Positions 10,016 through 23,020 are shown, numbered from the stretch's first letter. The stretch: 64,000 nucleotides of DNA from Bacteroidetes bacterium MedPE-SWsnd-G2 (GCA_001874335.1 MPDE01000002.1:248001-312000); one strand, 5' to 3'. The notes: generated from the sequence alone by a model not told the origin. A program made the numbers and translations.

Positions 10016-10510
10016 ATGCATATTCATTTTTCTGAAAAACAAAGATTCAACCAATGGTGGCTTATACTCCTTTTCATTGGCCTTGCGCTTATTCCTTTAG
10101 TGGGAGTTTATAAACAACTCATCTTAGGGCAACCCTTTGGTGACAAACCAATGTCTGATTCTGGGCTAATTATTTATGCTGTTTTAACCTTTTTATTTAT
10201 ACTCGGTTTTCAAGCTTTAACACTTAAAACCAAAATAACATCCAGAAGTATTGCGTTCCAGTTTTACCCTTTTGTAAAAAAAGAAATAAGTTGGAATGAA
10301 GTAAAATCGGCCAAACTTATTAATTATGGCTTTGTTGGTGGTTGGGGCATTAGATTATGGACCAAGTATGGAACAGTTTACAATGTAAAAGGCACAAAGG
10401 GATTAGCCATTGAATTAAATAACGGTAAAAAATTAGTTATTGGAACTCAAAAGTCTGATACGCTACAATTTGTTTTAAAGAAAATAGATCAATTCAACAC
10501 TAGAGAATGA
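10016..10510 (+). CDS. Small membrane protein with PH-like cytoplasmic tail
   Basis: The 164-residue protein has two transmembrane helices near the N-terminus (about residues 14-33 and 49-69). A soluble beta-rich region follows (KITSRSIAFQFYPFVKKEISWNEVKSAKL...). The pattern of a strand, a W-x-E/D-V and a final nucleotide-like YGTVYNVKGTKG resembles bacterial PH-like (DUF304-type) membrane proteins, but the match is by eye only. Its last four bases overlap the start of the VOC gene (ATGA), which suggests translational coupling. Confidence 0.55.
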   Translation: MHIHFSEKQRFNQWWLILLFIGLALIPLVGVYKQLILGQPFGDKPMSDSGLIIYAVLTFLFILGFQALTLKTKITSRSIAFQFYPFVKKEISWNEVKSAKLINYGFVGGWGIRLWTKYGTVYNVKGTKGLAIELNNGKKLVIGTQKSDTLQFVLKKIDQFNTRE

Positions 10511-10935
10511 TACCAAAAATTGACCACATTCAGATTACTGTAAAAGATTTAAAAAAAGCCGAGGCTTTTTACGATCTACTTATGCCTATTTTAGGTTTTG
10601 ACTTGGATAAAAAATCTAAAGGTACAGTAGAAGCTCACGATTTTGAAGTTATAGAATATATTCATAAAGAAATTACAATTGGGTTTAATTCGCCTAGAAC
10701 AGCCTTTGCAAACGACGATATTCACAGGAGAAAACCTGGTGCATTACATCACCTTGCGTTTAAGGCTGAATCCTGTGAAGCCGTTAATCAAGTGTATTCA
10801 AAAATCTGTAATATTGGAGCCCATATTGTAAATCCACCACAATTTTATCCTCAACATGGTGCATTTTACTATGCTTTATTCTTTAAAGATTTAGACGGAA
10901 TTAAATTAGAAGTGGTTTATGAAAAAGAATTGTGA
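10507..10935 (+). CDS. VOC family (glyoxalase/bleomycin-resistance fold) protein
   Basis: A 142-residue single VOC module pair. The first beta-alpha-beta unit opens IDHIQITVKDLKKAEAFYDLLMPILGF. The second contains HHLAFKAES and ends in LDGIKLEVVYE, where the closing Glu is a usual metal ligand together with His in the HI and HHLA strands. Probably a dioxygenase-, lyase- or resistance-type enzyme; the substrate is not predictable. It overlaps the upstream membrane-protein gene by four bases. Confidence 0.85.
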   Translation: MIPKIDHIQITVKDLKKAEAFYDLLMPILGFDLDKKSKGTVEAHDFEVIEYIHKEITIGFNSPRTAFANDDIHRRKPGALHHLAFKAESCEAVNQVYSKICNIGAHIVNPPQFYPQHGAFYYALFFKDLDGIKLEVVYEKEL

Positions 10936-11016: not shown

Positions 11017-14000
11017 ATGTCTATCACTAAAAAATCGCTAATTCTAAGCCTTTTTTTCCTACTTATACTTCAGTTAGATGCCTCTTTAACTGCACAAACT
11101 TTTACTAATATTCAATCGGTTTCGGGAATTGAAACTTCACACAATAATGGTATTGCTGTGGCCGATTTTGACAATGATAACGATCTTGATGTATTTGTTG
11201 TAGCTAAGGCAAAGGACAGCCCTGATAATCCACAATCTCTAAGCAAACTCTACAAAAATAATAACAATGGTACCTTTACAGATGTTACAGCATCTTCCGG
11301 CCTAGTTAACCTATTGCCTGAGGCAGAAAATCCTTCCGAATCATTTTTAGGTTTAGACGGCTTTAAACATGGCGTGTCTTGGGGTGATTATGATAATGAT
11401 GGCTATCCCGATTTGTTTTTAACGCACTCCTATAAAGTACAACTCTTTAGAAATTTAGGTGATGGTACTTTCGAAGAAGTTACGGTCGATGCTGGATTTG
11501 GAGAAAACAACAGCTGTCGCAACACTGGAGCCACATGGTTCGATTATAATAACGATGGCTTTTTAGATATTTACATTAATGACTGGGATGAATGTCCAAC
11601 TAACAGTTTGTATCAAAACAATACCGATGGTACATTTACTAATGTCACTGAAAGCACAGCAATTGGAACACCAGATATGGCGAGTTATACCGCTTTTCCG
11701 TTTGACTTTAACTCGGATGGATTTATGGATCTGCTTGTGACCAACGATTTTAGCGATCCTAATGATGTACTGATAAATCAAAATGCTGAAATGTTCTCTG
11801 AAGAAGGTTCTATTTATGGGTTTTCAACTGGAGCTGATGATATGGGAGTAGCCATTTCAGATTTTAATGGTGACGGTAATTTTGATTTTTTTATAACAGC
11901 AATTGATAAAAACTTTTTATATCAAAACAACGGTGACAACAGTTTTACAGATGAAGCTCAAATTCACGGATTAGACAATACATTGTGGTCTTGGGGTGCT
12001 AGATTTGCCGATTTTGATTTAGACTCAGATGAAGACTTAGTAGTTGTAAATGGCTATGTCTTTGAAGAAAGATCTACTGAAAAAAATTTTTACTTTAAAA
12101 ATCTTTTTCAGGAAGGACAAAACACCTTTGAAGATATCTCAGGAACCTTAGGCATAGACCTTTCTACCATTAGTGTTGAAGTTATCGATGTTGATTATGA
12201 TAACGATGGAGATTTAGATTTGATAATTACTAATTCAAATAGTCCCGTTATTTTTTACGAAAACAAACTTCTTAATTTTGATGAAGATCCATCGCATTCA
12301 TGGTTGAAAGTAAAATTAGAAGGTACCACTTCTAACAGAGATGCAATTGGTGCAATATTAGTACTTGAAACAAGTATAGGTGTACTTAAACGGTATTATT
12401 CTGGGGTAGGGTTTTTATCTCAAAGTCTTCAACCAGTTCATTTTGGAATAAACCAAGATGCCGAAGTAAATTCTTTAACCATTAAATGGCCCTCTGGCTT
12501 AACCGAAGTGATTTCAGACATTACCGCTAATACCACAATTAAGGTAATAGAAGGCAATGGTTCTGAAACACTGTCAATTTTACCAAGTCAAAAAATATAT
12601 GGTTGTTTAGACCCAACCTCCTGCTCCTATAATCCAGAAGCAACGGTTAGTGATGGTAGCTGTACTTATTTAGAGGCCAATACCATCCAAGGGGATTCAC
12701 AAGTCGCATTTTTATCAAACTCGATTTATACCTATCCTTTATCTGAAGATGCTGTTGCCAACTGGCAGGTTTCAAATGGAGAAATCATAGAAGGCCAAGG
12801 GACCAATACGGTTACTATTAAATGGCAATTGGAAGAATCAGGAACTATAAGTGTACGTGAAAACAATGGCACATGTTATAGTTTACCCCAAGATTTACAA
12901 GTGACTATTACAGGCGAAAATTTGCCTGAAAACATATCTGTAGCACGACTTTGGAACGAAGCGCTATTGGATGCTATTAGATCCGATTATGCTAGACCAA
13001 CTGTGCATGCAAGAAATTTGTTCCATACCAGTATTGCGTTATATGACGCCTGGGCATTCTACGATGACAAGGCGCAAACCTATCTTATTGGTAATACATT
13101 AAATGAATATACTAACGCCTTAGAAACCGATTTTATTCCTTCTGAATCTATTGAAGAGAGCCGAAAAAAGGCCATGAGTTTTGCGGCATACCGTATTCTT
13201 TCTCACAGATTTCAAAACAGCCCGAATGCTGAACGCACCTTAGAAAAGTTAGATTTTTTAATGAATCAATTAGGGTATGATACAAGCTATACGCCTACCC
13301 TTTACCAATATGGTAATGCTGCAGCATTAGGAAATTACATCGCGGCTTCTGTCTTAGCTTACGGTGATTTAGACCAATCAAGAGAAGCAACTGCATATGA
13401 CAATGCTTTTTATGAAGCCGTAAATATGCCTTTAGCACCAACTATTTCTGGAAATCCAACAATTACAAATGTTAACAGATGGCAGCCTTTAAGCCTTGAT
13501 ACCTTTATTGACCAAAGTGGAAACCTCATAGAAGGTAGTACGCCTGAGTTTTTAAGTCCGGAATGGGGTGCTGTTTGGGGATTTGCCTTAGAAGACACCA
13601 ATAAATCTGTTTTTCAAAGAGACGGCAATAACTATCAAGTTTTTCATGATCCAGGACAACCACCTCTTCTTGGTGATGAATTCTCTCTAGAGTCTAATGA
13701 AGCTTATAAATGGGGATTTTCTTTGGTTTCAATTTGGGGTGCACATTTAGATCCTTCAGACAACGTTATGTGGGATATTTCACCAGCATCTCTTGGTAAT
13801 ATTAACCCGGTAAATTTCCCGACAAACTATTCCGATTATCCTTCATTTTACAATTTGATAAATGGTGGTGACATCAGTTCGGGTAGAGCATTAAATCCGA
13901 GTACTAATCAAGCTTATGAAACTCAACTTGTACCCCGTGGAGATTATGCTCGAGTATTGGCAGAGTTTTGGGCAGATGGTCCAGATTCTGAAACACCTCC

Positions 14001-15042
14001 TGGACACTGGTTTACACTACTAAATTATATTAATGACAATCCTTTACTTGAAAAACGCCTCAATGGAAATGGCGCTATATTACCAACTTTAGAATGGGAT
14101 GTGAAATCGTATTTTATTTTGGGAGGCACCATGCATGATGCTGCTATCTCTGCTTGGGGAATCAAAGGATGGTATGATTATTTGAGACCTATTTCTGCAA
14201 TTAGATATATGGCAGACCTTGGCCAAAGTAGCGACGCCGAACTACCTAGTTATCATCCTCAAGGAATAACATTACTTCCTGGCTATATTGAATTAGTAAC
14301 TGAAAATGATCCTCTTGTTGGAATGAACGGTCAACACCTTAATAAAATTAAGGTATATAGTTGGAAAGGTCCGGACTATATTGAAGACCCAGAAACAGAT
14401 TTGGCGGGTGTAGATTGGATATTGGCAGAAAATTGGTGGCCTTACCAACGACCTTCATTTGTAACACCTCCTTTCGCTGGATATGTCTCAGGTCATTCAA
14501 CCTATTCTCGGGCAGCTGCAGAAGCATTGACACTGCTAACAGGGGATGAGTATTTCCCTGGTGGAATGGGAGAATTTGTAGCCAAGAAAAATGAGTTTTT
14601 AGTTTTTGAAGAAGGGCCTTCAACAGATATACATTTACAATGGGCTACCTACAGAGATGCTTCCGATCAATGCAGTTTATCACGAATTTGGGGTGGAATT
14701 CACCCTCCTGCCGATGATATCCCAGGTCGCCTCATTGGAGAACAAATAGGCGTGAATGCCTATAATTTTGCTGTACCTTACTTTAACTCTGACCCTGTCT
14801 TAGAAACAGAAAACAGTACTATGTATCCTAATCCTGTGGGTGATTTTAAGGTTAACGTATCAAACTCTAATGCATTAGAAGAATTTGCGCTTTACGATAT
14901 AAGCGGACGTTTTATAACAGCCTTATACCATGATTTTAATGAGTTATCAGGCATTTCGAATATTGAATTGCCGCAAACTTTAAACACTGGAATTTACATT
15001 TTAAAATCTTCTGAAGACGCATTCCTTTTATCTATTAAATAA
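11017..15042 (+). CDS. Secreted FG-GAP/ASPIC-UnbV protein fused to a vanadium-haloperoxidase domain, T9SS tail
   Basis: The 1341-residue protein has these parts in order. A signal peptide covers about 1-27. At least seven FG-GAP/VCBS calcium loops span about 45-410 (DFDNDNDLDVF, DYDNDGYPDLF, DFNGDGNFDFF, DYDNDGDLDLII). An ASPIC/UnbV domain lies at about 440-520 (DAIGAILVLET, VNSLTIKWPSGLTEVI). A Cys-rich linker repeat follows at 529-550 (GCLDPTSCSYNPEA), then an immunoglobulin-like segment. From about 645 to 1260 there is a vanadium-dependent haloperoxidase/PAP2-type domain with every vanadate ligand in place: K1050, R1057, S1158-G1159-H1160, R1223 and H1229. A type IX secretion type A sorting domain runs from about 1270 to the end (MYPNPVGDF...LNTGIYILK). 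Expected at the cell surface or released, either as a halide-oxidising enzyme or as an acid phosphatase of the same fold; the two cannot be separated by sequence reading. It has its own promoter. Confidence 0.85.
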   Translation: MSITKKSLILSLFFLLILQLDASLTAQTFTNIQSVSGIETSHNNGIAVADFDNDNDLDVFVVAKAKDSPDNPQSLSKLYKNNNNGTFTDVTASSGLVNLLPEAENPSESFLGLDGFKHGVSWGDYDNDGYPDLFLTHSYKVQLFRNLGDGTFEEVTVDAGFGENNSCRNTGATWFDYNNDGFLDIYINDWDECPTNSLYQNNTDGTFTNVTESTAIGTPDMASYTAFPFDFNSDGFMDLLVTNDFSDPNDVLINQNAEMFSEEGSIYGFSTGADDMGVAISDFNGDGNFDFFITAIDKNFLYQNNGDNSFTDEAQIHGLDNTLWSWGARFADFDLDSDEDLVVVNGYVFEERSTEKNFYFKNLFQEGQNTFEDISGTLGIDLSTISVEVIDVDYDNDGDLDLIITNSNSPVIFYENKLLNFDEDPSHSWLKVKLEGTTSNRDAIGAILVLETSIGVLKRYYSGVGFLSQSLQPVHFGINQDAEVNSLTIKWPSGLTEVISDITANTTIKVIEGNGSETLSILPSQKIYGCLDPTSCSYNPEATVSDGSCTYLEANTIQGDSQVAFLSNSIYTYPLSEDAVANWQVSNGEIIEGQGTNTVTIKWQLEESGTISVRENNGTCYSLPQDLQVTITGENLPENISVARLWNEALLDAIRSDYARPTVHARNLFHTSIALYDAWAFYDDKAQTYLIGNTLNEYTNALETDFIPSESIEESRKKAMSFAAYRILSHRFQNSPNAERTLEKLDFLMNQLGYDTSYTPTLYQYGNAAALGNYIAASVLAYGDLDQSREATAYDNAFYEAVNMPLAPTISGNPTITNVNRWQPLSLDTFIDQSGNLIEGSTPEFLSPEWGAVWGFALEDTNKSVFQRDGNNYQVFHDPGQPPLLGDEFSLESNEAYKWGFSLVSIWGAHLDPSDNVMWDISPASLGNINPVNFPTNYSDYPSFYNLINGGDISSGRALNPSTNQAYETQLVPRGDYARVLAEFWADGPDSETPPGHWFTLLNYINDNPLLEKRLNGNGAILPTLEWDVKSYFILGGTMHDAAISAWGIKGWYDYLRPISAIRYMADLGQSSDAELPSYHPQGITLLPGYIELVTENDPLVGMNGQHLNKIKVYSWKGPDYIEDPETDLAGVDWILAENWWPYQRPSFVTPPFAGYVSGHSTYSRAAAEALTLLTGDEYFPGGMGEFVAKKNEFLVFEEGPSTDIHLQWATYRDASDQCSLSRIWGGIHPPADDIPGRLIGEQIGVNAYNFAVPYFNSDPVLETENSTMYPNPVGDFKVNVSNSNALEEFALYDISGRFITALYHDFNELSGISNIELPQTLNTGIYILKSSEDAFLLSIK

Positions 15043-15051
15043 AAATATCTA

Positions 15052-17451
15052 TTACTTAGCAAAGACTTGCAGTACTTCAAAGTTCTTTTCAACTACAAAA
15101 GTTGCAACACCATCTATTGTTTCAATTGGAATTTCTATGATTTGACCATCAATTTCTACATGAGCAATGTCAAATGGTAATGCATAAAAATTAAGTTGAA
15201 ACGTTTCATATGGTGTACTGTAATTCCCTTCTTTATGTTGACTAATGGTTATACCATTCTTTTTACCTTTAAATTTAAATGTACGCTCACTATATCTGCC
15301 TTTCATATAATCATAACCGTTTTGGGCATCTTCATACAAATGTGATACTTCGGAACCTTTTAAGAAACAAATGTCTAATTTTACCTCTTTTATTTCTTTC
15401 TCACCAACATATTGCTGAACCGGATAATTTGGAATTATTGCCCCTGCTTTCACAAATATTGGTATTTGATCTATATCGGCATCTACCCAAATTTCTTTAC
15501 CTCCTTCAACAAGTTGCTTGTTCCAATAATTAATCCAAGTGCCTTTAGGAATATACATTCGTCTTCCCTTAGAGTTGGCTTCCAAAATAGGGCATACTAA
15601 AATATGATCACCAAACAAAAACTCGTCTGCTCTATAATAGGTCTGTGAATCTGATTGATCATACATCATAAGAGGTTTAATCATTGGCGTCCCCTTATCA
15701 TGATATTTCCAGAACATCGTGTAGAGATATGGCAATAGTTTATACCTCAACTCAATAAATTCCCTCGCAATATTTGTGACATTTTCGTCAAATGACCAAG
15801 GTTCTTGATCTCCATGATCTCCACTTGAATGCGTACGAAAAAAAGGATGAAATACAGCTAATTGTATCCATCTGGTAAACAACTCGCCATTAGGTTGCTC
15901 AGCAAACCCACCAATATCAGAACCTACAAAAGAATAGCCAGAGACACTCATGCGCTGCACTTGTTGATTTGCAATCCATAAATGTTCCCAGGTTGCAATA
16001 TTATCTCCTGTCCAAGTAGAAGAATAGCGTTGCGTTCCGGCATAAGCTGCTCTTGTAATTACAAAAGGACGCTTTGGATAAGTAAATTCCTTAACACCAT
16101 TGTAGGTCGCTCTAACCATTTGCATCCCATAAATATTATGGGCTTTTCTATGACTACAAGCATTGCCATCAAAATCATGTCGGACGTCTAAAGGAAATGT
16201 TTTAGAAGGCACTTCCATTACAGCAGGTTCATTCATATCATTCCAAACGCCCGCAATTCCAACATCTTCAATCATTTCTTTATAGAGTGTCCCCCACCAT
16301 TTTCTAACCTTTGGATTAGTGTAATCAGGAAAATTACAATCTCCTGGCCAAACTTTTCCAACCATTAATGGGCCATCAGCTCTTTTACAGAAATAGTCGT
16401 TGTCTAATGCTTCCTTATAAATAGAATAATCTGGGTCTACTTTTATACCTGGATCAATCATCGCAACTGTATTGAATCCCATATCCCTTAATTCACCTAC
16501 CATCCGTTTTGGATCTGGAAAATGGTTATCATCCCAAGTAAAACACCTAAAGCCATCCATATAATCGATATCTAAATAAATAGCGTCACACGGAATTTTT
16601 AAATCTCTAAATTTTTGAGCTACATCCATCACCTTTTTTTCAGGATAGTAACTCCATTTACATTGGTGATAACCTAATGCCCAAAGTGGTGGCATTTCTG
16701 GTTTCCCTGTTAAATCGGTGTAAGACGTTACGACTTGCTCCATTTCTGGTCCATAGAAAAAGTAATAATTCATTTCTCCTCCTTCTGCCCAAAAGCTTGT
16801 AATATTTCTTCTTTCATGACAAAAATCAAAATGCATTTTGAAGGTATTATCAAAGAAAACACCGTAAGTAATATCATTATGAAGGCCAATGTAAAAAGGA
16901 ATTGCCTTATAAAGAGGATCCCTTTCTGTATCAAATGCATATTGGTCTGTTACCCAATTTTCAAATCGTTTACCCTTTAAGTTGAAATGAACGGGTTTAT
17001 CTCCTAAACCGTAAAAACTTTCCGTTTTTTGAGCATGCTTAGTCATTTTTACAATATCTCCTCCCCAATCATAATTAAATTCCCAATGAAAACCAGATTC
17101 ATCTTGATTAAGAAGTTTCATATTTATATCATAAATAGATTTTCTTAAATCAGATTTATTAATCTGAAGAATCAACTTAGTTGTCTTAATTTCAAAATAG
17201 GTATCAAACTCTATATAATCCAAAAAATTATAACCTGTTACGGCAGTTTTAGACAGGGCATATGAAAAGTCATTTTGAAATGTACCATTTGTAGCATATC
17301 GAAACCTAAATACACTATCTCTTACCACAGTTATTTCTAAGGCCACATTATTTATGGTTGTGATAAGAAACTTGTCCTTAAATTTTTTAAAACTTGATAT
17401 CGAAGATGGAAATTGATTTCCCTTTTGCTCTAATTCTGTATTAGTAATCAT
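15052..17451 (-). CDS. Glycoside hydrolase family 31 alpha-glucosidase
   Basis: The 799-residue cytoplasmic protein (no signal peptide) has the full GH31 layout: N-terminal beta-sandwich, TIM barrel, distal beta domains. The catalytic nucleophile is D405 in WNDMNEPAV and the acid/base is D483 in STWTGDN, the usual spacing of about 78. Substrate-site motifs YHQCKWSYYP, IYLDIDYMDG and FRTHSSGDHGDQEPW support an alpha-1,4-glucosidase acting on maltooligosaccharides. It is the last gene of the glgE-maltokinase-glgB run, 64 bases after glgB, and would release glucose from the glucan or maltose pool. Intracellular location fits with internal storage glucan rather than environmental starch. Confidence 0.9.
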   Translation of the reverse strand: MITNTELEQKGNQFPSSISSFKKFKDKFLITTINNVALEITVVRDSVFRFRYATNGTFQNDFSYALSKTAVTGYNFLDYIEFDTYFEIKTTKLILQINKSDLRKSIYDINMKLLNQDESGFHWEFNYDWGGDIVKMTKHAQKTESFYGLGDKPVHFNLKGKRFENWVTDQYAFDTERDPLYKAIPFYIGLHNDITYGVFFDNTFKMHFDFCHERRNITSFWAEGGEMNYYFFYGPEMEQVVTSYTDLTGKPEMPPLWALGYHQCKWSYYPEKKVMDVAQKFRDLKIPCDAIYLDIDYMDGFRCFTWDDNHFPDPKRMVGELRDMGFNTVAMIDPGIKVDPDYSIYKEALDNDYFCKRADGPLMVGKVWPGDCNFPDYTNPKVRKWWGTLYKEMIEDVGIAGVWNDMNEPAVMEVPSKTFPLDVRHDFDGNACSHRKAHNIYGMQMVRATYNGVKEFTYPKRPFVITRAAYAGTQRYSSTWTGDNIATWEHLWIANQQVQRMSVSGYSFVGSDIGGFAEQPNGELFTRWIQLAVFHPFFRTHSSGDHGDQEPWSFDENVTNIAREFIELRYKLLPYLYTMFWKYHDKGTPMIKPLMMYDQSDSQTYYRADEFLFGDHILVCPILEANSKGRRMYIPKGTWINYWNKQLVEGGKEIWVDADIDQIPIFVKAGAIIPNYPVQQYVGEKEIKEVKLDICFLKGSEVSHLYEDAQNGYDYMKGRYSERTFKFKGKKNGITISQHKEGNYSTPYETFQLNFYALPFDIAHVEIDGQIIEIPIETIDGVATFVVEKNFEVLQVFAK

Positions 17452-17515
17452 GAATTGACAGTGTTATCCTTTACAATTTGTAACGGAATTAATTGAAATT
17501 TAAATGGTTTTTGTT

Positions 17516-19423
17516 TTATGCTTTTTTAAGTACTAATACGCCTAAAGGGGGAAGATTTAATACAATCGAAGCATCCCTATCGTGGCTTTCAATCTCTTGA
17601 GATTTCACTTTTAAATCTTCAGAAACACCAGAGCCATTAAACGCTCTTGAGTCAGAATTGAAAACAGCTTTATAAGTTCCTGGTTTTGAAACACCAATTC
17701 TATAATTTTCTCTCACCACTGGGGTCATGTTACAAACAACCAAAAGTTGATTTTTTATATCGTGCCCATGTCTTAAAAATACTAAAACAGAATTTTCGGC
17801 ATCTCCATAATCTACCCATTCAAACCCTTGACTTGAAAACTGTTTTTCATGTAATGCCGGTTCTTCTTTGTAAAGGGTATTTAAAGCAGTCATTGTGTTT
17901 TTTATTCCTTTATGAACATCATATTGCAATAAATCCCAATCCAGACTACCTTGAAAATCCCATTCAGATGATTGTCCAAATTCTCCTCCCATAAATACCA
18001 GATTAGAACCTGGGTGAGTAAACATATAACTATACAACAACCTCAAATTAGCAAACCTCTGCCATTCATCTCCAGGCATTCGTCCTAAAATAGATTGCTT
18101 ACCATAAACCACTTCGTCATGACTAAGCGGAAGCATGAAACGTTCTGAAAACGCATATGTCATACTTAAGGTGATATCGTTTTGATGGTGTTTTCTGTAA
18201 ACAGATTCCTTTTTAAAATATTCTAAAGTATCATGCATCCATCCCATCATCCATTTCATCCCAAAACCAAGTCCGTCATTCTCAACTGCTCGAGTTACGC
18301 CAGGAAAAGAAGTAGATTCTTCGGCTATAGTTTGAACATCAGGATAACTAGAATACACTTCTTGATTTAAATCTTTTAAAAATGAAATAACTTCAAGGTT
18401 TTCTCTCCCACCAAATTGATTTGGTTCCCATTCTCCATCTTCTCTAGAATAATCTAAATACAACATTGAGGCCACCGCATCTACCCTTAAACCATCGGCA
18501 TGAAATTGATCTAACCAAAAAATAGCATTACTTATTAAAAAAGCTCTAACTTCATTACGACCGTAATTAAAAATTAAACTTTTCCAATCTGGATGATATC
18601 CTCGCCTTCTATCAGGATGTTCATAAAGATGCGTACCATCAAAATTACCCAATCCGTGTGCGTCTTCAGGGAAATGCGAAGGTACCCAATCCAAAATTAC
18701 ACCTATATCATTTTGATGCAATTGATCTATTAAACATTTTAAATCATCCGGGTTCCCAAATCTACTTGTAGGTGCAAAATAACCTGTTAATTGATATCCC
18801 CAAGAAGGATCGTAAGGGTATTCCATTACAGGCATAAATTCTACATGTGTAAAATTTAATTCTTTAACATAGGCCACCAGTTCTATGGCTAACTCTTGAT
18901 AGGTTAAACTTCTATCTTCTTCTATTTTTCGTTTCCATGATCCTAAATGCACTTCATAGACAGAATACGGTTTATCCAAACCATTTTTATCTTTTCTATA
19001 CCCCATCCAATCGGTATCTTTCCACTTATAATCATCTTCCCAAACTACAGATGCTGTGTGAGGTGGATGCTCACATAAACGTGCAAACGGATCTGCCTTT
19101 TCGGTTTTGGCATCATGATGATTGGAGTGAATTTTGTACTTATAGGTATCCCCTACTTTTACTCCAGGAATGAAACCTTCCCAAATACCTGAGCCATCCC
19201 ATCTTACATTTAAAGGATGTTGCCCTTCTACCCAATAATTAAAATCAGAAATTACGGATACAGCTTTAGCAGATGGCGCCCAAACGGCAAAATAAACGCC
19301 TTTTACACCATCAACTTCTAAAACATGAGACCCTAATTTCTCATATAACCTATAATGTTTTCCTGCCTTAAATAAGTTTATATCAAACTCACTAAACAAG
19401 CTGTATACCTGAACTTTTTCCAT
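17516..19423 (-). CDS. glgB: 1,4-alpha-glucan branching enzyme (GH13)
   Basis: A 635-residue GlgB. It has an N-terminal CBM48 domain (about residues 15-110, GVYFAVWAPSAKAVSVISDFN), a GH13 barrel with nucleophile D315 (LRVDAVASM), acid/base E368 (IAEESTSFPG) and the third acidic residue in LSHDEVV, and a C-terminal all-beta domain. The 53-residue gap between nucleophile and acid/base is normal for GlgB. It introduces alpha-1,6 branches into the glucan made by GlgE. The start lies one base after the maltokinase stop, so the genes are clearly in one transcript. The protein is shorter than the enterobacterial enzyme because it lacks the extra N-terminal domain. Confidence 0.95.
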   Translation of the reverse strand: MEKVQVYSLFSEFDINLFKAGKHYRLYEKLGSHVLEVDGVKGVYFAVWAPSAKAVSVISDFNYWVEGQHPLNVRWDGSGIWEGFIPGVKVGDTYKYKIHSNHHDAKTEKADPFARLCEHPPHTASVVWEDDYKWKDTDWMGYRKDKNGLDKPYSVYEVHLGSWKRKIEEDRSLTYQELAIELVAYVKELNFTHVEFMPVMEYPYDPSWGYQLTGYFAPTSRFGNPDDLKCLIDQLHQNDIGVILDWVPSHFPEDAHGLGNFDGTHLYEHPDRRRGYHPDWKSLIFNYGRNEVRAFLISNAIFWLDQFHADGLRVDAVASMLYLDYSREDGEWEPNQFGGRENLEVISFLKDLNQEVYSSYPDVQTIAEESTSFPGVTRAVENDGLGFGMKWMMGWMHDTLEYFKKESVYRKHHQNDITLSMTYAFSERFMLPLSHDEVVYGKQSILGRMPGDEWQRFANLRLLYSYMFTHPGSNLVFMGGEFGQSSEWDFQGSLDWDLLQYDVHKGIKNTMTALNTLYKEEPALHEKQFSSQGFEWVDYGDAENSVLVFLRHGHDIKNQLLVVCNMTPVVRENYRIGVSKPGTYKAVFNSDSRAFNGSGVSEDLKVKSQEIESHDRDASIVLNLPPLGVLVLKKA

Positions 19424-19424
19424 A

Positions 19425-21080
19425 TTATAATTGTTCCTTCATTAATGAGTCTATTCCTTGTAGTGGTATTAATGCCCAATCTGGTCGCGCATTCATTTCA
19501 TATCCTAATTCATAAACTGCCTTTTCAAGCAATAAATATTTTAATAAAAATACACGTTCTTGGTCATATCCTATATTAATATTTGCCTTTTGAATATAAT
19601 TGGTGTATGTCATTAAAAATACACCACAAAAAAAGCGATATAGTTTTTCTCCAACACCAAATAATTCATCCTGAGTATAAGGATAGTTGTCTTTATTGGT
19701 AAGTATATTAGAATAAATAGCGTAATGAAAAGATCTAAATAATCCAGCAACATCTTTAAGAGGTGGTTGTTTAACTTTTCTATCTCTAATAGTACTTTCG
19801 GGCTCACCTTCAAAATCCAAAATAAAATAATCGTCTTTATGCACTAGAATTTGTCCTAAATGATAATCTCCGTGAACTCTTAAGCGTTCACCTTTTAGTT
19901 TAGTCCAATTGAAGCTCATAAACCGTCGTCTAATTTCTCCTTTATTTTCAAGAAATTTTTCTGCTAATTCTAAGGATAACCCTTCTAATTTATGAAGGTT
20001 ATTTTCCACCATGTTCAACCTATCTTGAAATTGGTAAATTAATTTATTTTTAAGCCATACATCATAATCTGCATTAAATCGTTGTGGTTCAAAAGCAGTT
20101 TCTTCAAACTCTGAACCCAAGGCGCTGTGCATTTCTGCCGTACGTCGTGCTAATTGTTGTAATTGAAGAAACACTCTCAATCCTGCGATATCTATAATTT
20201 CTGGAGGGACATCCTGAATCCCTAAACGTAGTAAAAAAGGCGTATCAGGGACTTTTTTTAAATCTATTTGCTTTAGCTCTAAATTTTGAAAAATTTTATC
20301 TAAATCATCAACCATTACACTCCATGCTTCGCCTTCATTTGGAACCATTTCTTGCATTAGTGCAATGGTTACCGTATTTCCTGTTTCTTCCAAAACATTT
20401 ATACTACCTTGATATCTTGGGACATTAGAGAAATTGGCTTTATCTGATAAAAACCTTGAAATTTCATAATCCGGATTTCTGTCTGAAAACAATCGTCTGA
20501 AGAATTTTATAACACAATGATCATTGATAATTATAGACGTATTACTTTGTTCTTTACCCATGAGCCTAGAACTCACATACTCGGTATCCTTAAACGAATT
20601 ACCTTTGTGATATTGTACGCCAATATTAGGTGAATTATCACTTTGAATTATACGTTCGAAAACTAATTTCCTAAAAGCTTCAATGTGCACCGCATCTACC
20701 AAATATCCTTTTACACCATTTAAAGTGATATTCATTAGTACATCTTCACGTGCAAATTCTTCATCAGTAACAAATGCTAAAGGAATAAAGTAATGTTGAA
20801 AAAAAGCTTCTTTAAAATTAATCTCTAATATTAACCCATAATAAAGTTCAGCATTCTGCTCAATTTTAAAATCATGAGATAACTCGATATACTTTAGCGT
20901 GCTTGATTTACCCGCATACCAACGTTGATCCTTAATATACTTTTCTAGTATATCCCTCAAAAACAATTTTAAAAATGCTTTATTTTCTAACAAAGATTCC
21001 CATGACGAATCAAACTCCATTTGAAAATCATTTTTTACTTGAATTGAACTATTTGAAGATTCTACTTCCTTTTCTTCCAT
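19425..21080 (-). CDS. mak: Maltokinase (ATP:maltose 1-phosphotransferase)
   Basis: A 551-residue aminoglycoside-phosphotransferase-fold kinase. The opening KYIKDQRWYAGKS is the maltokinase N-terminal cap motif. The catalytic loop HGDYHLGQIL contains D405, and the metal-binding DFEGEP contains D422. It makes alpha-maltose 1-phosphate, the substrate of GlgE. In many bacteria it is fused to or paired with trehalose synthase TreS, but no TreS domain is present in this protein or in the window. Its ATG overlaps the glgE stop codon by one base (TAATG), which points to tight translational coupling. The symbol follows the family name. Confidence 0.88.
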   Translation of the reverse strand: MEEKEVESSNSSIQVKNDFQMEFDSSWESLLENKAFLKLFLRDILEKYIKDQRWYAGKSSTLKYIELSHDFKIEQNAELYYGLILEINFKEAFFQHYFIPLAFVTDEEFAREDVLMNITLNGVKGYLVDAVHIEAFRKLVFERIIQSDNSPNIGVQYHKGNSFKDTEYVSSRLMGKEQSNTSIIINDHCVIKFFRRLFSDRNPDYEISRFLSDKANFSNVPRYQGSINVLEETGNTVTIALMQEMVPNEGEAWSVMVDDLDKIFQNLELKQIDLKKVPDTPFLLRLGIQDVPPEIIDIAGLRVFLQLQQLARRTAEMHSALGSEFEETAFEPQRFNADYDVWLKNKLIYQFQDRLNMVENNLHKLEGLSLELAEKFLENKGEIRRRFMSFNWTKLKGERLRVHGDYHLGQILVHKDDYFILDFEGEPESTIRDRKVKQPPLKDVAGLFRSFHYAIYSNILTNKDNYPYTQDELFGVGEKLYRFFCGVFLMTYTNYIQKANINIGYDQERVFLLKYLLLEKAVYELGYEMNARPDWALIPLQGIDSLMKEQL

Positions 21081-23020
21081 TACTTGTTAATTTTAAATAA
21101 ATGAAATGGCATACTCGGATCTAATTCTACAAAACACCACTCTTTATCCCATATATAATTACTTCCGCTTATTAAATCATTCATACCAATCGGGTGCCCT
21201 TCCGGCACCCCTAATTTATGCAATGGCATTTGCACCCAACCTTTTTGAGCATAATACGGATCTATGTTCACCACCATTAAAGTCTCATCCTCATGCAAAT
21301 CATCGTATTTGTAGTACGCCAATAACTTATCATTTTCAAGATTCAAAAACTTGATATTATTAGTTTGTTGAAGAGACCTATGAGATTTTCTAATGTCGTT
21401 GATCCTAGAAATCATAATGGTTAACTTATTCTCTATATCCCAATTCCAGTCCTTCAATTGAAATTTTTCTGAATCTAAATATTCTTCTTTTCCTTCTAAT
21501 GCTGCTCCATTTAAGTGTTCATAAATTGGACCGTAAAGCCCAGTATTAGAACTTAATGTTGCCGCTAAAAAATACCTAAACAAATAAGTGGCTTCGTTCC
21601 CACTTTGCAAGGCCCAAGGATTTATATCTGGAGTATTAGGCCAAAAATTTGGCCTGAAATAATACTTCTGATCTGTTGTTGTAAGCTCGTTCATATATTG
21701 AATGAGCTCATCTTTGCTATTTCTCCATGTAAAATAGCTATAGGATTGTGTATAGCCTTGTTTTGCCAGTTGATGCATTATTTTTGGTCGAGAAAATGCC
21801 TCTGCTAAAAATATCATATCAGGATGTTTAGCTTTAATCTGCTCAATCATCCAACCCCAAAAATAAAAGGGCTTGGTATGTGGATTATCAACCCTAAAAA
21901 TCTTAATATCACATTCTTCTATCCAGAACAATGCGGTATCTAACATTTCTTGCCATAGGTTTTTCCAATCGGCAGACTCATAATATATGGGTAGAATGTC
22001 TTGATATTTTTTTGGAGGATTCTCGGCATATTGTACTGTTCCATCGGGACGCCATTTAAACCATTCTGGATGATCCTTAACCCATGGGTGATCCGGCGCC
22101 GCTTGCAGTGCAAAGTCTATAGCTATTTCAATACCTAATTCTTTTGCTTTTTGCACTAGTGCTTTAAAGTCATCCAAACTTCCTAATTCTGGATGTATGG
22201 CCTTATGACCACCAAATTTTGATCCGATCCCCCAAGGTGAACCAACATCACCCTCAAAAGCATGAGTTGTATTATTTTTTCCTTTTCTATTTACTTCTCC
22301 AATCGGATGAACAGGTGGAAAATACAATACATCAAACCCCATTTTGGCTACCCTTGGCAGCAAGCGCTCGCAATCTTTAAATGTGCCATGAACTCCTGGT
22401 TCTGATGAAGCCGAACGTGGGAAAAACTCATACCAGGTGCTAAATCTTGCTTTTTCTCGGTCTACATATACCTTGAATAAAACAGAACTGTTTAATAAAA
22501 ATTTTTCCGGATATTTTGTAAAGATTGCTTTTAACTCGTCAGATTGGGCTGATCTCGTTGCAGCTGTATAACGCTCTTCATCTTTAAATTCATCTATCAG
22601 ATAATTGAGGTAATCTTGTTCTTCTGGCAATGCTTTATCCCTAACACGCATCACATATTCAACGCCCTCAAGGAGTTCTGACTTCACATGTTGATTATCA
22701 TCAATTTTTCTACCAATACCATATTGCCAATTTAGCGCATAATCAACCCAACCAACAATTTTATACTCATATCCGCCTTGTTTGTCAACCTTAAAACGAC
22801 CAATCCAATGGTCATTACCAGTGTGAAGTAAGCGTTGTTCTTGCCATTCTGATGCTTCAGAGCTTTTATACATTACAGAAGCAGCCAACACATCATGACC
22901 ATCTGAAAAAATTGAAGCACTAACAGGAATTATTTCTCCCACTACTGCTTTTATTTGATGAATTCCACCATCCAATTGTGGTTTAACATCTTCTATAATA
23001 ACCCGTTGTTGACTATACAT
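21080..23020 (-). CDS. glgE: Alpha-1,4-glucan:maltose-1-phosphate maltosyltransferase (GH13_3)
   Basis: A 646-residue GlgE. An N-terminal beta-sandwich and helical segment are followed by the GH13 barrel with nucleophile D378 in FRVDNPHTKP and acid/base E407 in LAEAFSRP, both diagnostic GlgE variants of the GH13 motifs. YFPPVHPIGEVNRKGKNN and the INPWALQSGN region also fit. It extends linear glucan by transferring maltosyl units from maltose 1-phosphate. First gene of the run with maltokinase, glgB and a GH31 glucosidase. A perfect palindrome and a TATCTTTA element lie within 40 bases upstream. Confidence 0.95.
   Translation of the reverse strand: MYSQQRVIIEDVKPQLDGGIHQIKAVVGEIIPVSASIFSDGHDVLAASVMYKSSEASEWQEQRLLHTGNDHWIGRFKVDKQGGYEYKIVGWVDYALNWQYGIGRKIDDNQHVKSELLEGVEYVMRVRDKALPEEQDYLNYLIDEFKDEERYTAATRSAQSDELKAIFTKYPEKFLLNSSVLFKVYVDREKARFSTWYEFFPRSASSEPGVHGTFKDCERLLPRVAKMGFDVLYFPPVHPIGEVNRKGKNNTTHAFEGDVGSPWGIGSKFGGHKAIHPELGSLDDFKALVQKAKELGIEIAIDFALQAAPDHPWVKDHPEWFKWRPDGTVQYAENPPKKYQDILPIYYESADWKNLWQEMLDTALFWIEECDIKIFRVDNPHTKPFYFWGWMIEQIKAKHPDMIFLAEAFSRPKIMHQLAKQGYTQSYSYFTWRNSKDELIQYMNELTTTDQKYYFRPNFWPNTPDINPWALQSGNEATYLFRYFLAATLSSNTGLYGPIYEHLNGAALEGKEEYLDSEKFQLKDWNWDIENKLTIMISRINDIRKSHRSLQQTNNIKFLNLENDKLLAYYKYDDLHEDETLMVVNIDPYYAQKGWVQMPLHKLGVPEGHPIGMNDLISGSNYIWDKEWCFVELDPSMPFHLFKINK

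Follow-up and report, generated by a model that had tools for sequence, protein, structure and literature searches.

A single gene in the marine flavobacterium Bacteroidetes bacterium MedPE-SWsnd-G2 joins an FG-GAP propeller and an ASPIC/UnbV domain to a vanadium haloperoxidase (VHPO) domain, a new domain architecture inside a known enzyme family. VHPOs use peroxide and a halide to make a bleach-like oxidant. From the sequence and structural models, we predict, with a probability of about 80%, that the product is an exported vanadium-dependent haloperoxidase with a non-catalytic, calcium-stabilised propeller–ASPIC module. No description of a haloperoxidase–propeller fusion was found in the literature searched, from which many subscription papers were absent; the architecture is thus undescribed in the searchable literature yet widespread, and is far from unique to this genome.

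Architecture, predicted export and distribution of the fused protein

The gene lies in a 64,000-nt stretch of assembly GCA_001874335.1 (MPDE01000002.1:248001-312000; hereafter the window). Its 1341-codon frame is unbroken, was mapped whole onto the window's own genome (3.0 Mb, 99.8% complete) and encodes, in order, a probable signal peptide, the FG-GAP propeller, ASPIC/UnbV, a linker that is rich in Cys and matches PKD weakly, the VHPO domain and a type IX secretion tail (Table 1). Because 38 other loci, from ~20 genera, carry the same fused frame, a chance frame, misassembly or frame artefact is ruled out as the origin of the fusion, and the original prediction that propeller, ASPIC/UnbV and vanadium-site domain share one polypeptide stands. 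The protein matched FG-GAP_3, UnbV_ASPIC and VCPO_2nd; Pfam PAP2, the type first named for the enzyme half, had no match in the window protein whereas the VCPO-specific model did.

Table 1. Features of the fused gene and its product
Feature	Coordinates	Strand	Residues	Basis
Whole fused gene	11017..15042, stop codon included	+	1-1341	Open frame, ATG start, 1341 aa
Sec signal peptide (probable; MSITKKSLILSLFFLLILQLDASLTAQ)	11017..11097	+	1-27	Read by eye: basic N-end, hydrophobic core, AQ end
FG-GAP propeller	11101..12306	+	~29-430	Pfam FG-GAP_3 x5; fold match to CRTAC1 9etn
ASPIC/UnbV domain	12343..12540	+	443-508	Pfam PF07593, 52.6 bits
Linker: Cys-rich motif, weak PKD_6	12601..12879	+	529-550, 555-621	Pfam, alignment
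VHPO domain, two helical bundles (DUF6851 + VCPO_2nd)	12934..14793	+	640-1259	Pfam, AlphaFold2 model, structural alignment
Predicted halide-site Trp and two vanadate ligands (W-x2-K-x6-R-P)	14155..14187	+	W1047, K1050, R1057	Invariant, 68 sequences
Predicted halide-site Phe, vanadate ligands, acid-base His (PPFAGYVSGH)	14473..14496	+	F1153, S1158-G1159-H1160	Invariant, 68 sequences
Predicted last Arg ligand and axial vanadium-binding His (SRIWGGIHPPADD)	14680..14718	+	S1222-R1223...H1229...D1233-D1234	68-sequence alignment
Type A type IX secretion tail	14821..15039	+	1269-1341	TIGR04183

The C-terminus matched TIGR04183 over residues 1269-1330 (31.9 bits; NCBIfam cut-off 23) and the genome also encodes, at another locus, the type IX core component SprA (2782 bits), both in agreement with the type IX tail first proposed. 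Por_Secre_tail, the Pfam model of this tail, was found in 29 of the 31 fused proteins scanned. Judging by its two ends, a probable signal peptide and the tail, the fused protein would be taken by Sec and subsequently by type IX secretion across the outer membrane, and the tail would be removed as the protein is released or anchored at the surface.

Within 299 sampled Flavobacteriaceae genomes, about 42 contained a close match within a frame of 1250-1420 codons (fusions here being recognised by the length of the frame, with propeller sequence present in those loci that were retrieved), and other members of the family carried the same enzyme in a ~730-codon frame. An even draw across the phylum recovered the enzyme in 22 of 395 genomes, and just two of these, the window's own and a second from Flavobacteriaceae, had the close match of fused length; a genome from another family (G341) held long frames of a different kind. 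Across GTDB species, relatives of the enzyme numbered at least 582 loci, with a propeller in 38 of the best 80. FG-GAP_3, ASPIC and DUF6851 were present in all 31 fused proteins scanned and VCPO_2nd in 30. Genera with the fused form include Winogradskyella, Psychroserpens, Maribacter, Polaribacter, Algibacter, Flavivirga, Wenyingzhuangia and Tamlana; outside Flavobacteriaceae it was rare among the best relatives listed, occurring in Marinoscillum and one member of the Prolixibacteraceae. Tamlana nanhaiensis encodes two fused propeller–haloperoxidase genes in tandem (L085:7057-15139), and genome G227 has two nearby copies.

Upstream, a small gene (10507-10935) that reads by eye as glyoxalase/VOC-like lies 81 bases from the fused gene, which might form a unit alone or continue from the small genes upstream. 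The convergent genes downstream comprise a GH31 alpha-glucosidase (15052-17451), GlgB, a putative maltokinase (TreS_Cterm model, 551 aa) and GlgE; the whole (15052-23020, minus strand) looks like a GlgE-type alpha-glucan pathway, and no full trehalose synthase was found among the neighbouring genes scanned. Since GH31, GlgB and GlgE are on the opposite strand and were not found beside relatives, a role deduced from them was rejected. An operon with halogen or peroxide genes was likewise rejected, as no gene family was found in common between the neighbourhoods of the window and the fused relatives; among the relatives themselves, conservation of the neighbourhood is confined to certain genera.

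The propeller–ASPIC module and the history of the fusion

The propeller comprises five FG-GAP_3 stretches (136 bits) and seven loops of calcium type (D-x-D/N-x-D/N), located around residues 50, 124, 176, 230, 282, 332 and 393 (six found by pattern, that at residue 50 by eye), which suggests seven blades. Between ASPIC and the marginal PKD_6 match (25.2 bits; cut-off 25) lies the motif GCxDPxSCxYNPxAxxxDGSC (12601-12666), and linker cysteines 530, 536, 549 and 620 are invariant across 31 fused proteins. Vertebrate CRTAC1 has a C-terminal EGF-like module; Pfam found no CRTAC1-type EGF module in the fused protein, which has the Cys-rich linker instead. Foldseek searches with the fused model placed CRTAC1 (9etn) as the top match, with GlcNAc-binding fungal lectins lower. 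Structure prediction of the fusion, as originally proposed, did not fix the relative orientation of the two halves: the model (1200 residues, lacking residues 1-58 and the tail) had a pTM of 0.64, and we therefore left the mutual placement of the halves uninterpreted.

In a maximum-likelihood tree of the enzyme domain (midpoint rooting, quick search), 27 fused and two unfused proteins formed one clade (SH-aLRT 99), which supports one fusion followed by two propeller losses as the simplest history. An essentially single origin, followed by retention in dozens of related bacteria from the sea, argues that the fusion is a real enzyme design, and loss in two lineages indicates that the propeller is inessential to the enzyme. 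Downstream of one unfused gene (L033) are a SprT-like gene and a guanylyltransferase, as in ~16 fused loci, fitting loss of the propeller in place. A propeller split off rather than lost was rejected for both unfused genes, L033 and L111, with no propeller gene found adjoining either (the L033 locus being short).

Other relatives carry different additions. A 1738-aa protein of Saprospiraceae (L105:7561-12780) has five FG-GAP_3 stretches followed by the same haloperoxidase domain; because it is without ASPIC, its propeller is only 26% identical to that of the window and its enzyme is distant in the tree, it is apparently an independent propeller fusion. In four loci, mostly of Saprospiraceae (L070, L080, L097 and L114), 3-6 C-terminal Cu-binding_MopE motifs follow the haloperoxidase and precede a type IX tail, and in a Cyclobacteriaceae protein (L077:7651-11142) LRR and Ig domains stand ahead of it. 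With FG-GAP, LRR/Ig and MopE fusions all among its relatives, the enzyme appears to have gained extracellular modules repeatedly. The window's genome also encodes an unfused 729-aa type IX haloperoxidase (L002:1450-3639, minus strand) on a separate branch of the tree.

The propeller had initially been suggested to tether the enzyme to glycans or algae. A propeller that acts as an adhesin, recognising algal or other glycans specifically and so bringing the enzyme to a surface, would be compatible with the exported haloperoxidase that we favour, and is the alternative that survives best, though we consider it doubtful. In its favour, the fold is like that of CRTAC1 and, more distantly, of fungal lectins that bind GlcNAc; it is also suggestive that extracellular modules, the independent FG-GAP fusion among them, seem to have been added to this enzyme more than once. 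Against it, most of the propeller positions that are invariant across the 31 fused proteins belong to calcium loops or are glycines or hydrophobics of the fold, leaving glycan or algal tethering unsupported; sequence divergence is quicker in the propeller (49% mean pairwise identity) than in the enzyme (66%), two relatives dropped the propeller and no ligand site was identified within it. This pattern of conservation fits a structural or docking module. More speculatively, such docking might aim hypohalite chemistry at one defined partner, whether a glycan, a host or the surface layer of the producing cell. The haloperoxidase would then be directed rather than diffusible, a solution reached twice: once in the clade with ASPIC, whose members are mainly Flavobacteriaceae, and once in the protein of Saprospiraceae.

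The haloperoxidase domain and its predicted activity

Within the enzyme half, VCPO_2nd matched residues 1132-1259 (33.3 bits; Pfam cut-off 27) and DUF6851 residues 673-824 at slightly below its cut-off (24.6 bits; cut-off 27). The VHPO ligand set (K, R, S, G, R, axial H and acid-base H) is complete. All seven predicted residues, K1050, R1057, S1158-G1159-H1160, R1223 and H1229, are where they had been placed and are identical in 68 of 68 aligned sequences (for R1223, 67 and one X). Equally invariant are W1047 and F1153, which stand three residues ahead of K1050 and seven ahead of H1160, respectively; from this spacing we take them to be the equivalents of W350 and F397 of Curvularia chloroperoxidase. 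F397 of that enzyme is a suspected halide-binding residue (PMC10427571). The W-x2-K-x6-RP spacing is common to the fused protein, NapH1, NapH3, XhnO11 and the Zobellia enzyme, and the alignment of TPPFAGYVSGHS in the fused protein with TPPFPEYTSGHS in the Zobellia iodoperoxidase is gapless. The PAP2/acid phosphatase motif KX6RP-PSGH-SRX5HX3D is also present, with VSGH in place of PSGH; because VHPO and phosphatase families both have it, this core alone is not decisive.

The AlphaFold2 model of residues 640-1259, built from an alignment of 68 sequences (mean pLDDT 90.2, pTM 0.92), comprises two tandem helical bundles, and its alignment with NapH1 spans model residues 1 to 619 (Z 30.9, 434 residues, 2.5 A). 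XhnO11 (Z 30.4), NapH3 (Z 30.1), Zobellia VIPO (Z 28.1 over 391 residues) and Curvularia VCPO (Z 22.3 over 419 residues) followed, all characterised enzymes being ~20% identical to the domain by structural alignment. Acid phosphatases aligned with the C-terminal bundle only (Z 12.2 over 203 residues), and the domain, at 620 residues and with a second bundle, is larger than a single-bundle phosphatase (~200-230 residues). Given the VCPO model match, the AlphaFold2 model, the full-length fold alignment and invariant W1047 and F1153, we regard residues 640-1259 as a haloperoxidase with a complete Zobellia/Curvularia-type site; the choice of haloperoxidase over phosphatase, still a prediction, is better backed by fold comparison and VHPO-specific models than was originally claimed.

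The closeness of the Streptomyces enzymes NapH1 and NapH3 and of XhnO11 in fold, together with extensive conservation in the family outside the vanadate site, in the stretch that separates the bundles, could alternatively point to a VHPO-fold enzyme for a special organic substrate bound by the propeller. Like NapH1 or NapH3, it would perform site-selective halogenation or a non-halogenating rearrangement (the latter named for NapH3 in its PDB title). We judge this unlikely: the fused protein has the PPFxxYxSGHS signature of the Zobellia iodoperoxidase where NapH3 and XhnO11 have SGF/SGS, no biosynthetic genes were found beside the fused gene in the window, and neighbouring genes stay the same only inside certain genera. 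Less probable still is a secreted PAP2-type acid phosphatase that obtains phosphate from organic phosphate and binds vanadate as an inhibitor-like accident, since the shared K-x6-RP ... SGH ... SR-x5-H-x3-D core and the phosphatase match to the C-terminal bundle (Z ~12) are set against the presence of both bundles (390-436 residues aligned with haloperoxidases, ~200 with phosphatases), a matching VCPO-specific model where PAP2 has none, and the invariance of the residues at the Curvularia halide-site positions. The title of PDB entry 3bb0 does indicate that apo-chloroperoxidase can dephosphorylate, so a VHPO site could run phosphatase chemistry without vanadate.

In the exported haloperoxidase that we favour, vanadate would be held by K1050, R1057, S1158, G1159, R1223 and axial H1229, with H1160 as the acid-base residue. 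By homology, vanadate-bound peroxide would yield hypohalous acid extracellularly by oxidising a halide, in seawater most likely bromide or iodide, and the CRTAC1-like propeller and ASPIC, non-catalytic and calcium-stabilised, would present, position or dock the enzyme. Its likeliest use may be to consume peroxide and create a local zone of reactive halogen against competitors, or where the cell meets algae or other sources of peroxide. Haloperoxidases of marine bacteria contribute to the halogen cycle and influence the chemistry between microbes and algae. As the exported fusion is common, conserved and centred on Flavobacteriaceae, part of marine halogen chemistry may be surface-displayed.

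Comparison with known systems

The characterised haloperoxidases found in our comparison are without such an added module. Zobellia galactanivorans VIPO1 (4cit/4usz), also a marine Flavobacteriaceae enzyme, has the same two-bundle fold (Z 28, 387-391 residues), the gapless PPFxxYxSGHS match and equal W-x2-K-x6-RP spacing, but is only ~21-22% identical, and its solved chain of 458 residues has neither propeller nor linker; its iodide specificity cannot be transferred to the fused enzyme. NapH1 (3w35/3w36), NapH3 (8cxl) and XhnO11 (9l8x) are the best fold matches (Z ~30-31) and have the SRxWxGxH motif in common with the fused protein, although they are ~20% identical and not fused, and NapH3 and XhnO11 lack the SGH histidine that the fused protein keeps. 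Curvularia inaequalis VCPO (1vnc, 1idu) has the same two-bundle fold (Z 22) but is fungal, 18% identical and without propeller or type IX tail. For the other half, CRTAC1 shows the same order of FG-GAP propeller and ASPIC (phmmer 1.9e-11), but with no attached enzyme. Closest to home, the unfused paralogue in the window's genome is 53% identical over enzyme and tail and has the same ligands, but is without the propeller. Stand-alone and fused sister proteins offer a natural pair for the propeller's contribution.
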